NCBI GenBank assembly: GCA_009781635.1
Contig: WQXU01000018.1
Location: forward strand, 1-57,741
DNA: 57,741 bases
Origin: Treponema sp.
GTDB taxonomy: Bacteria; Spirochaetota; Spirochaetia; Treponematales; Breznakiellaceae
Direction of reading: 5' to 3'
The notes under the pieces were generated by a model. The model was given only the letters and a program-made list of their open reading frames with translations. It was not told where the DNA came from and ran no database searches. Position 1 is the stretch's first letter; each line of letters starts with the position of its first letter. A program made the translations under genes and the position numbers. Shown piece by piece: positions 1,631 through 53,883 of the stretch.

Positions 1631-1650
1631 TAATTTAATTTTACCTTATT

Positions 1651-1778
1651 CCTTGGCAAAAAACAAGAAAATGCCGTTTTTACCTTGGCAAAAAATAAGA
1701 AATTGTCGTTTTTTCCTTGGCAAAAACTATCAATCTGGTGGTTTTTCCTTGGCAAAAGCTGATTCTTCCTTTTCCCGT
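1651..1778. repeat. 32-bp-period direct repeat array upstream of the AAA_14 ATPase
   Basis: CCTTGGCAAAA begins at 1651, 1683, 1715 and 1747, exactly 32 bp apart each time. The first two units agree along most of their length; the third and fourth keep mainly the CCTTGGCAAAA core. The units are contiguous, so this is not a CRISPR. The array ends 21 bp before the start codon of the minus-strand ATPase (1630). Two more arrays with periods of 33 and 31 bp occur in the window. Confidence 0.8.
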
Positions 1779-41153: not shown

Positions 41154-42422
41154 TCAGGCGCCTTCCAATAGCCATTTCCAAAGCGGTAAGACATCAATTT
41201 TCTTGCCGCCGGAAGAAATGGTTTTTTCCAGATCGCTTGTGATGATCAGTAATTTTTTACATTCAAGAAAAGTTGATGCCTTAAGCAATGAATTAATTTC
41301 TCTTTCTGCAGTGGCATTTGTACTGTCCAAATTATAACACGCTTGTATGGCAGTTGCTGTTTCCGGCAGATAAAAATCAACTTCTATGCCCTTATTGTAA
41401 AAAAATACCATATTGTTACGCCCAAATGTTTTTACTAAATTAACCGCCACCATATTTTCAAATAATGATGTGGTTCCATCCAACAAAAAAAGGTTTAGTA
41501 TGCCGTTGTCTGTAAAATAATATTTCGGTTTTGTTTCTTTCTCGGTTAATTTGCCAGCAATATTTTGTATTGGATTGATAAGCCAGGCATCTTTTGCATA
41601 CTCGATATAGTTAATAACGCTGTTAACGCTTATTTTTATACCTACAGAAGATACTATGTTAGCTATTCGATTGTAGGATACAGGCTGATTAACACTCTCT
41701 GCCAGTTTTTTGAACAAAACGCGAAGCGCTGCAATGTTGGATACAGAATGTCTTGCCGCAATATCTCCAAGATAAATTTTCTGATATATGCTGTTCAGAT
41801 AATCCCTCTTGGATGAAAACAATAAAGTTTCCGGCAATCCGCCGTAATTGAAATAATCGTTAAATTTCCTTAATACACCGGCTTTGCCCTGAGTTGAAAA
41901 AAGAGTGTTTTCTGAAAAATCAGTATTACTTGCATTTAAATATTCTTTAAAGCTGTACGGATAAACATCAATGGGAATAAACCTTCCGCCGAGTGTGCTC
42001 TGAATCTCGGCGCTTAACATTTTTGCGTTGCTTCCGGTAATGTAAACCCGGTACTTTGTGTCAGCAAGCCTGCGCGCGAATTTTTCCCAGCCGTTCACAT
42101 TTTGAATTTCATCAAGAAAAAATATGGGTTTTACGCCGTACATCTCAATATGTGTTTCCAAAAGGAGGTCCAAATCGTCAGAAACCATGCCGGAAATTCT
42201 TTCATCTTCGAAATTGATATAAAGCATTTCATGCGGTTTTATACCCCTGGAAAGCAGTTCCTGCATACGCTGAAAAAGCAGGTAGGATTTTCCGGCTCTG
42301 CGTATGCCGACAAAAACATAGTTTCCCTCCTCCTCAAAACGAATATTCCGGGGGGTTACCTTGTATTTTGGGATTTCTGCCATGTTGTTGGCAATTATTG
42401 ATTTTAATGTATTTTTATACAT
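41154..42422 (-). CDS. AAA_14 / DUF4143 family ATPase (second copy)
   Basis: A 422-aa protein with the same layout as the gene at 326-1630. Walker A is GIRRAGKSYLL (about residues 39-49), Walker B is IFFLDEIQN, and VYITGSNAKML is the sensor-1 segment. The C-terminal DUF4143 part has GIEVDFYLPE followed by AIQACYNL in the place of the nuclease-like core; the usual EVK is degraded to QAC here, so catalytic nuclease activity is doubtful. The sequences of the two ATPases are clearly divergent, so they are not a recent duplication. It converges on the cellobiose phosphorylase stop (5-bp gap). Upstream lies a 33-bp-period direct-repeat array. Function unknown. Confidence 0.9.
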   Translation of the reverse strand: MYKNTLKSIIANNMAEIPKYKVTPRNIRFEEEGNYVFVGIRRAGKSYLLFQRMQELLSRGIKPHEMLYINFEDERISGMVSDDLDLLLETHIEMYGVKPIFFLDEIQNVNGWEKFARRLADTKYRVYITGSNAKMLSAEIQSTLGGRFIPIDVYPYSFKEYLNASNTDFSENTLFSTQGKAGVLRKFNDYFNYGGLPETLLFSSKRDYLNSIYQKIYLGDIAARHSVSNIAALRVLFKKLAESVNQPVSYNRIANIVSSVGIKISVNSVINYIEYAKDAWLINPIQNIAGKLTEKETKPKYYFTDNGILNLFLLDGTTSLFENMVAVNLVKTFGRNNMVFFYNKGIEVDFYLPETATAIQACYNLDSTNATAEREINSLLKASTFLECKKLLIITSDLEKTISSGGKKIDVLPLWKWLLEGA

Positions 42423-42451
42423 AAACCCTCAATTTTGTTCAGTATAACTCA

Positions 42452-42517
42452 GTCTATAGAACAATTATACTATATTTTTGTTCTGTCTATAGAACAATTA
42501 TACTGTATTTTGAGGGG
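42452..42517. repeat. 33-bp-period direct repeats upstream of the second AAA_14 ATPase
   Basis: GTCTATAGAACAATTATACT begins at 42452 and again at 42485, 33 bp apart; each is followed by a TATTTTG-like segment. At the junction TTGTTCT (42478-42484) and AGAACAA (42491-42497) form a perfect dyad around 6 bp, an operator-like feature. The array starts 30 bp before the ATPase start codon (42422). Confidence 0.75.
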
Positions 42518-42536
42518 GAGCGCCAGACACCATGTA

Positions 42537-42553
42537 CCGGTGCCTGGCACCGG
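42537..42553. repeat. GC-rich palindrome
   Basis: CCGGTGCC-T-GGCACCGG, a perfect 8-bp dyad with a one-base centre, followed by GTTTTATTTT on the plus strand. It lies just past the DUF3597 stop codon. It could end plus-strand transcription or be a dispersed palindromic repeat (the core GGTGCCTGGCACC). Confidence 0.5.
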
Positions 42554-42556
42554 GTT

Positions 42557-42994
42557 TTATTTTCCCATTCCTGAGGGGACTTTACCGCCGTTTGCGGCGA
42601 GCGCCTTCATTACTTCCTTGTGCAGCCAGATGTTCTTTTCTGCGGAACCATCGGGATGGGTGCCGGAGTATTTGAGTTCAGCGGCGAGTTCCTTGCGTGC
42701 AGCCAGACTGCTGTCAAGATCGATTGTCCTTAATAAATCAACAATCGATTCGCGCCAATTGAGCTTTATACCCTTGGCCTTTGCTGCGGCATCGAGAACA
42801 GCCGCTACATCAACGGGCTGTGCTGCCGGCCGCGGCGCTTGTACCGGTTGCGCTGCTGCTGCTGCTTTTCCTGCCGCTATTGCCGCTGCTGCCGTTCCTG
42901 ACATTACTGGGGCGGCGGCTGGTTTTGCAGGCGCTGCCGGCGCTGGCGTTGGTTTACCGAGGATTTTGTCCTTAATCGAATTAAAGATACTCAT
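42557..42994 (-). CDS. DUF3597 domain protein
   Basis: A 145-aa protein. It opens with MSIFNSIKDKILGK, continues with an Ala/Pro-rich low-complexity stretch (about residues 16-65), and ends with the DUF3597 domain (LNWRESIVDLLRTIDLDSSL, AARKELAAEL, NIWLHKEVMKAL). The domain is conserved but of unknown function; distant relatives have been compared with peptidoglycan-associated or LysM-linked proteins. The ATG at 42994 is preceded by AAGGAG, so a longer frame starting at 43072 is rejected. It is a single-gene unit. Confidence 0.88.
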   Translation of the reverse strand: MSIFNSIKDKILGKPTPAPAAPAKPAAAPVMSGTAAAAIAAGKAAAAAQPVQAPRPAAQPVDVAAVLDAAAKAKGIKLNWRESIVDLLRTIDLDSSLAARKELAAELKYSGTHPDGSAEKNIWLHKEVMKALAANGGKVPSGMGK

Positions 42995-43135: not shown

Positions 43136-43279
43136 CCACGCCAGAGCGTGCGTTAATAATATCTACCTCTACCAAGGAAAAATTTATAAAAAAAACAACT
43201 AATTAGGAAGCGGGTACGCAAAGCCCTGCCGCGGGCCTCGGTGTGAAGTCCTACAATGCCACGCCAGAGCGTGCGTTAA
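43136..43279. repeat. Pair of 21-bp direct repeats
   Basis: CCACGCCAGAGCGTGCGTTA plus one A occurs at 43136-43156 and again at 43259-43279. Each contains a small dyad (ACGC-CAGA-GCGT). The second copy lies in the loop of the large inverted repeat 43205-43330. No gene is seen between 42994 and 43357. Confidence 0.6.
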
Positions 43280-43330
43280 AAAATACCACAGCCGCCAGCC
43301 CGCGGCAGGGGCTTTGCGCACCCGCTTCCT
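43205..43330. repeat. 126-bp inverted-repeat element with 32-bp arms
   Basis: The left arm 43205-43236 (AGGAAGCGGGT...CCGCGGGC) and the right arm 43298-43330 are reverse complements apart from one substitution and one extra G. The arms are GC-rich, unlike the AT-rich flanks. It could fold as a long hairpin in RNA beyond the peptidase stop (43357), or be a MITE-like element. No ORF inside. Confidence 0.7.
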
Positions 43331-43356
43331 GAGGAGTTACTTATATTGGTATAAAT

Positions 43357-52728: not shown

Positions 52729-52770
52729 CTCCCCACTCCCCACTCCCCACTCCCCACTCCCCACTCCCCA
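52729..52770. repeat. Heptamer repeat array (CTCCCCA x6), G-quadruplex-capable
   Basis: Six perfect copies of CTCCCCA at 52729-52770, extended by degenerate CTCCCTAA and CCCCAGCCCC-type units to about 52805. It fills the gap between acetate kinase and the PfkB kinase. The minus strand carries GGGG runs every 7 bases, a strong G-quadruplex pattern. It resembles the short tandem heptamer (STRR) repeats known from cyanobacteria. Confidence 0.85.
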
Positions 52771-52842
52771 CTCCCTAACCCCCAGCCCCATTCCCCAACC
52801 CCCCCTTTCCATGTAAAAATAAAAAAAATCCAGGAGGTTTCA

Positions 52843-53883
52843 TTGATCGAGCTTTTGTGCATCGGCAATCCGCTTGTTGATGTCTTTGTAAATATTGATG
52901 ATAAACTCGCAGCAAAATACGGCATTGTCGATCCTGTTCAGCATATCGACAGGGAGCAGGCTGAACTTTTTCTGCGCGACAATGCAATTGATGTTGCAGG
53001 AACGGTAAAAAGTTCAGGCGGAGGAGCCGCGAATGTCGCAAAAATAGCCGCCATGCTGGGAATGAACGCTGCGTTTTCCGGCTGCGTGGGACAGGATGAA
53101 CTTGCAAAAACATTTGAAGATGAGATGAACGGAGCCGGCGTATCCGCAAAGCTTGTAAGGTCAAATGAAAAAACAGGGCTGTGTTTTGCGTGTAACATTA
53201 ACGGCGAAACAAGATTTGCCGCAAGCCCGGGCGCGGCGCTGGAGTTTAATGAATCGCATATCAGCGAAGAGATGATCAGCAGCGCGGAAGTTGTTGTAGT
53301 TGACGGTTATATTCTGGATCGCCGCCCTCTTGTAAAGCACATCTTACTGCTTGCAAGCCGCCGCGGAATTCCGGTTGCCCTGGATGCAGCTTCGGTTTTT
53401 CAGGTTAACAGAAAAGCGGAGGAAATTCTTACCTACAGCCGCAACTTTCCCCTGTTTATTTTTATGAATGCCGATGAAGCGCTTGCATTTTATAACACAA
53501 TAAGAAAAAGCAATGATGATGATTCCAGATTATCGGAGAAGGAAAAGGAAACTAAAATCATTAATTATATCTGCCCCACATTAAAAATAATTACAGACGG
53601 AGAATTATTTCCCATCATAGTGTTAAAACTCGGAGGCCGAGGTGCGCTGGTTATTGCAGGCGGCAATATATACCGCGAAGAGACTTTTACAATTACACCG
53701 CGGGACACAATCGGCGCAGGAGATGCTTTCTGCGCAGCTTTCATTTCCGCATGGATACGCCACAAGTCCATTTCCGAGTGCGCCGCGCTTGGCAACAAAG
53801 TCGCGCGGGAGATTTTACAAGTACCCGGCACTCATATAAAGAGCGGAAAATTAAAGTCCTTCGCAAAAATGCTGCAGAAGTAA
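52843..53883 (+). CDS. PfkB family carbohydrate/nucleoside kinase
   Basis: A 346-aa ribokinase-fold kinase. N-terminal signature GGGAANVAKIAAMLG; C-terminal signature DTIGAGDAF with the catalytic base Asp294. The opening LCIGNPLVDVFVNIDD and spacing resemble the adenosine kinase-like branch, but the substrate is not certain. The start is a TTG at 52843, chosen because AGGAGG at 52832-52837 precedes it at the right distance. The ribosome-binding site begins about 25 bp after the C-rich heptamer tract. The DJ-1 gene follows after 27 bp, probably in the same transcript. Confidence 0.88.
   Translation: MIELLCIGNPLVDVFVNIDDKLAAKYGIVDPVQHIDREQAELFLRDNAIDVAGTVKSSGGGAANVAKIAAMLGMNAAFSGCVGQDELAKTFEDEMNGAGVSAKLVRSNEKTGLCFACNINGETRFAASPGAALEFNESHISEEMISSAEVVVVDGYILDRRPLVKHILLLASRRGIPVALDAASVFQVNRKAEEILTYSRNFPLFIFMNADEALAFYNTIRKSNDDDSRLSEKEKETKIINYICPTLKIITDGELFPIIVLKLGGRGALVIAGGNIYREETFTITPRDTIGAGDAFCAAFISAWIRHKSISECAALGNKVAREILQVPGTHIKSGKLKSFAKMLQK

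Follow-up and report, generated by a model that had tools for sequence, protein, structure and literature searches.

What purpose is served by the evenly spaced repeats that stand directly in front of an ATPase gene in a treponeme, and which protein reads them? The window, that is, the whole stretch of 57,741 nucleotides of Treponema sp. that was analysed (contig WQXU01000018.1), carries on its minus strand an AAA_14/DUF4143 ATPase gene at 326-1630 (434 aa; Pfam AAA_14 E 8e-28 and DUF4143 E 8e-37; PADLOC PDC-S01 E 7e-171), and the original prediction regarded the repeats ahead of it as cooperative operators or a gene-specific self-recognition site. The analysis reported here leads to the view that each ATPase of this family probably uses a winged helix to assemble on its own array and thereby represses the gene that encodes it.

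The window array consists of four operator-like units with the core TTTTTGCCAAGG on the strand of the gene (minus), spaced exactly 32 bp, namely the distal unit 1 at 1747-1758 (CTTTTGCCAAGG), unit 2 at 1715-1726 (TTTTTGCCAAGG), unit 3 at 1683-1694 (TTTTTGCCAAGG) and the promoter-proximal unit 4 at 1651-1662 (TTTTTGCCAAGG). The 32-bp period that had been claimed is confirmed, as the two highest tandem-repeat scores in the window (TRF 124 and 120) belong to this array and the repeat score of the region upstream of 326-1630 was reached by no dinucleotide shuffle (p <= 0.01). The extent of the array was predicted correctly at its start, 1651, but slightly too far at its end, 1778, as the array stops at about 1758. 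A gap of 20 bp separates it from the ATG of the minus-strand gene (1630), and its unit is a dyad (p 0.025). The predicted core promoter (1638-1666, minus strand) is composed of TTGTTT (1661-1666), a 17-bp spacer, in which unit 4 lies, and TAAAAT (1638-1643). This promoter is a reading by analogy with orthologues in other genomes, which carry TTGTTT-17-TATAAT at the equivalent position, while an automatic scan favoured other hexamers.

A second AAA_14/DUF4143 ATPase gene, a distant paralogue, is located at 41154-42422 on the minus strand (422 aa; assigned by Pfam; PADLOC PDC-S01 E 2.8e-95), and an array of different sequence with a 33-bp period, anticipated in front of it, was found. Its two operator-like units on the minus strand, at 42482-42497 (TTGTTCTATAGACAGA) and 42449-42464 (TTGTTCTATAGACTGA), share the form TTGTTCTATAGAC(T/A)GA, which is unrelated in sequence to the first array, and lie 33 bp apart; two copies are weak when taken alone, and they are supported by the family pattern described below. 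Near this array (42520-42560), as well as at another family locus (L018), there are dispersed repeats of the GGTGCCTGGCACC and GCTGGCACCTCACC types, unrelated to the operator units. The window additionally holds an inverted repeat at 43188-43347, with 39-nt arms that are 79% complementary and 82 nt apart, which stands beside a repeated CACGCCAGAGCGTGCGTTAA sequence and may be a mobile repeat of the dispersed or miniature sort. At 52729-52797, CTCCCCA (7 bp) is repeated ten times in tandem ahead of a kinase-like gene that begins near 52843.

The genome of the window contains nine DUF4143 genes, and nearly all of those with a readable upstream region show promoter repeats or dyads by eye. A quantitative comparison was made over 160 bp upstream of each of 138 non-identical family genes, drawn from the genome of the window and from relatives, with significance assessed against dinucleotide shuffles (p <= 0.01). 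The controls were 175 neighbouring genes with intergenic upstream regions, from which family members, the divergent pfk gene and CRISPR arrays had been removed. Significant direct repeats precede 79/138 family genes versus 4/175 controls (Fisher p about 1e-30), and when inverted repeats are also counted the figures become 97/138 and 8/175 (Fisher p about 1e-37); by the shuffles and these cleaned controls, an artefact of chance or composition is rejected. The enrichment is not driven by near-copies, because 47 of the 85 clusters formed at 70% identity hold a direct array. In these 160-bp shuffle tests, about 40% of the members gave no significant direct repeat and 30% gave neither direct nor inverted repeats, and some members have no array but one long dyad that spans the -10 box. 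The proposed locus type, an ATPase with its own cis array, is thus supported by this enrichment among relatives, with unrelated genes rarely positive, and is wider than had been guessed. CRISPR arrays (repeat GCACCCGCGCGGGGTGCGAC), among those removed from the controls, lie no more than a few kb away from family genes in one genome, G035 (L081 and L094). An inverted repeat was also observed upstream of an AbiEi-like gene (L109:1541-2180), which is a possible analogue of autoregulation.

The geometry of the arrays is quantised. Neighbouring units are spaced at 23 bp (91 cases), 22 bp (10), 33 bp (44) or 32 bp (21), with little else, so that the period of 31-33 bp predicted for the family holds in one large branch (32-33 bp) but not in others, in which it is 22-23 bp. 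Mapped on the tree of the proteins, the class of spacing changes only twice, compared with 24 times on average in shuffles, and the class of the nearest neighbour agrees in 96%, even when the comparison is restricted to proteins less than 40% identical. The sequence of the units behaves differently: a motif is common to about 90% of pairs at >=70% protein identity, part of which may be plain common ancestry, to 13% at 50-60% identity and to almost none below 45%. The change of motif therefore falls between 50 and 70% protein identity, whereas spacing holds far deeper. Such a combination of deeply conserved geometry and fast-changing sequence is as expected of a protein that binds to its own sites in side-by-side fashion. 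The unit core measures about 12-18 bp within a period fixed at 22-23 or 32-33 bp. Dyad symmetry as a general rule was rejected, as only 12/28 arrays of the 32/33 class and 10/39 of the 22/23 class have dyad units at p <= 0.05; these include the window array and the ACATTTATTGG..CCAATAAGTGT types, and the rest of the family are not dyads. A windowed analysis of motif against protein hinted at the ATPase/winged-helix part, but a domain-level bootstrap singled out no domain.

The pattern extends well beyond treponemes. A search with the first protein as the single query yielded 80 loci with relatives that are 51-76% identical, distributed among Firmicutes, Melainabacteria, Bacteroidetes, Synergistetes, Rickettsiales, Endomicrobium, treponemes and others, and the upstream self-match of these loci rises to one sharp peak only, at lags 33 and 32 (8.4 and 5.6 versus about 3.5). 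A spacing of 32/33 bp is met again in Firmicutes, Melainabacteria, Bacteroidetes, Proteobacteria, Fusobacteria and Actinobacteria, and appears as 66 bp in Haloferax, the sole archaeon looked at. Moreover, among 11 plasmid or phage records that were picked before any look at their upstream regions, repeats were present in 8 at p <= 0.005 and in one more at 0.01, with lags of 32, 33 or 66; those with repeats include Glaesserella, Collinsella, Acinetobacter, Fusobacterium animalis and the archaeon Haloferax. An Endomicrobium member of the 23-bp branch has likewise kept its array, which has a 23-bp period and belongs to the TTTTCGC type. A Rickettsiales assembly (L149) and an Endomicrobium assembly (L151) contain relatives that share 61-62% identity with the window protein, which suggests either transfer between unrelated bacteria or misbinned contigs. 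The plasmid-borne relative of Glaesserella (L284) adjoins a site-specific DNA methyltransferase, and that of Fusobacterium animalis (L285) adjoins an RNA 2'-phosphotransferase.

For the protein itself, AlphaFold2 models of a 32-bp member, the product of 326-1630 (pLDDT 92.5), and of a 23-bp member (pLDDT 91.6) are confident, and the former is laid out as an ATPase domain, a winged helix and a C-terminal PD-(D/E)XK-like domain (E339, D367, E380, K382). Residues G25, G30, K31, D92 and E93 of the ATPase core (Walker A/B) are invariant. The closest folds are those of the archaeal ATPases 2qen (Z 16.4) and 2fna (Z 15.4), followed by CED-4/NLR STAND proteins and Orc; the product is accordingly predicted to be an Orc/STAND-like ATPase followed by a winged helix, the recognition helix of which is provisionally placed at 264-276. 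In the C-terminal domain, E339 and K382 are invariant and D367 and E380 nearly so among 75 sequences, and the model arranges helix 328-346 and strands 352-358, 365-372 and 375-381 as an alpha-beta-beta-beta core bearing the conserved E, D and ExK, the pattern of a PD-(D/E)XK nuclease. The structure comparison of the whole model barely covered this domain, and its only match to a solved nuclease is a weak one to Cas4 (4r5q, E 0.27 and 0.083).

The function of the family, earlier described as unknown, is not wholly blank, as PADLOC lists it as the phage-defence candidate PDC-S01, the profile of which is matched by all 56 proteins of the alignment. PDC-S01 has been described as a single-gene candidate in which an ATPase is fused to a PD-(D/E)XK domain, and is reported to rank fourth in abundance among the defence systems of prokaryotes (PMC12988326). 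It was discovered by guilt-by-embedding, and for most such candidates validation is pending (PMC12988326). Since no experimental validation of PDC-S01 was found in the literature, phage defence by this family is a prediction, and the family a candidate system.

Within genomes, the motifs are private. In the 2.77-Mb genome of the window, TTTTTGCCAAGG has three exact copies in the array and one elsewhere, and its matches at <=1 mismatch number 45, versus 41 for a reversed-pattern control. For the second gene, mismatch copies of the motif are likewise as frequent as those of reversed-pattern controls; both this motif and the one at a third copy in the genome (ACTGAGTAAAAATACTCA, 22-bp period) recur only at their own genes, and the search of this genome revealed no genome-wide regulon for any of the three. 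In many members, units are positioned at the -35/-10 region. Promoter overlap, a private motif and a spacing that follows the protein tree, the properties by which an autoregulated operator array is recognized, are all present, and together with the predicted winged helix they strengthen the reading of the repeats as operators or self-recognition sites to which the ATPase would bind.

These properties can be assembled into a model in which the repeats would be operators for the product of the gene that they precede. The ATPase would bind the units of its own array through the winged-helix domain, with subunits side by side and a spacing that protein shape dictates, at 22-23 bp in some branches and at 32-33 bp in the other. 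Once assembled cooperatively over the core promoter, they would shut the gene down; repression is proposed as the direction of control because the units cover the core promoter, an argument from position alone, and activation by the arrays instead is possible. As each protein branch has its own unit sequence, several copies per genome would not cross-regulate. In this manner a potentially harmful ATPase-nuclease, predicted to act against phages, may be kept low until it is released, for which ATP state, invading DNA or a phage product are candidate triggers.

A different use of the same binding has also been considered, in which the array, beyond its role as an operator, would serve for docking or self-recognition and keep the ATPase on its own DNA in a silent, polar assembly. 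This assembly would act as a sensor in the manner of STAND/NLR proteins, and its release or remodelling would license the nuclease. The single orientation of the units (265 versus 16 hits) and their fixed spacing are as expected of a polar assembly, the closest folds are STAND-type ATPases and Orc, and the catalytic PD-(D/E)XK residues are conserved. However, the location of units over the core promoter is already explained by plain autoregulation, and the trigger is hypothetical; this explanation is judged unlikely.

It may be asked instead whether the repeats are the ends of a mobile element or replication-type iterons, through which the ATPase moves or replicates its gene. The family is indeed patchy, with 0 to 22 copies per genome within the genus, plasmid carriage of relatives was seen, and the fold is Orc-like. 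Furthermore, in same-genus relatives, pfk, which adjoins the window copy, is preceded by other genes, often mazG-like; because the ATPase and the array are both absent at the pfk site in these relatives (by eye), gene and array most likely arrived together, as would be expected of an element. Their joint absence counts for the operator model too. However, units are essentially confined to upstream regions (18.6 per kb versus 0-0.24 elsewhere), with no motif copies downstream of family genes (the hits there at L018 belong to another dispersed repeat), by which a transposon with terminal repeats was rejected. In addition, the units overlap the promoter, and the neighbours of 102 family genes include no recurrent partner recombinase or replication gene. 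Mobility or replication through the repeats is therefore regarded as quite improbable.

A separate host regulator, rather than the ATPase, might bind the arrays, as binding by the ATPase is itself a prediction. Against such a regulator, the paralogues of one genome have different motifs, none of which occurs elsewhere in that genome, the spacing follows the tree of the ATPase, and no neighbour family recurs beside the 102 genes apart from other family members, which are the commonest neighbours; there is little to recommend this possibility. With no conserved adjacent partner gene at these loci, a two-gene toxin-antitoxin module was likewise rejected. Lastly, it is highly improbable that the repeats lack a regulatory role and represent neutral tandem repeats, a relic of CRISPR type or an RNA element, for although AT-rich intergenic DNA commonly holds short tandem repeats, the control genes lack arrays, the spacing is quantised and follows the tree, the cores are more alike than the spacers (0.90-0.93 versus 0.59, a difference partly inflated by best-window choice), and there is no Rfam hit. 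A known RNA element was dismissed on the last ground, and a CRISPR array on the core length and the fixed periods over the promoter as well.

Autoregulation through promoter repeats is an already known kind of control. In toxin-antitoxin and restriction-modification controller operons, a dangerous activity is restrained by a protein that binds repeats in its own promoter. The arrangement proposed here resembles these operons in such restraint but differs in that one protein, encoded by a single gene with no partner, would be both regulator and effector, and in that the arrays are head-to-tail with two quantised spacings. Iteron Rep proteins of plasmids and Orc1/Cdc6 are winged-helix initiators that act on head-to-tail repeats and can repress their own genes. 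The present family shares with them the head-to-tail direct repeats and the predicted winged helix, but no origin or replicon function is seen, the genes are single and chromosomal, and the motif is confined to the promoter. The archaeal ATPases 2qen (PAB2304) and 2fna (SSO1545) and the STAND ATPases provide the best structural match over the ATPase and winged helix, at about 12-17% identity and with the C-terminal nuclease-like domain of the family uncovered. To our knowledge, no cis array is known for 2qen, 2fna or STAND ATPases. With PDC-S01 the family agrees in profile membership and in domain make-up (PMC12988326), and differs in the promoter array, which is mentioned in no paper found. 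In the open-access literature on DUF4143, COG1373 and PDC-S01 (preprints and most subscription journals being outside the search), there is no report of arrays, and protein-specific arrays with two quantised spacings in this widespread ATPase-nuclease family appear to be unreported.

These arrays bear on a family for which a published survey counts about 39,000 PDC-S01 genes. A more speculative idea, which is doubtful at present, is that of a built-in sensor, in which an inactive, protein-specific ATPase assembly would be stored on its own promoter, and its loss or remodelling, for example upon phage takeover of transcription or degradation of host DNA, would both derepress the gene and license the nuclease; if true, this would be a one-gene defence system guarded by its own operator. 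For autoregulation by the ATPase as proposed here, the private operator of each protein amounts to a predicted DNA ligand, legible directly in the genome, by which binding, stoichiometry, regulation and the trigger become directly testable. Moreover, the many protein-motif pairs constitute a natural data set on DNA recognition by winged helices and on the avoidance of cross-talk by paralogous regulators.
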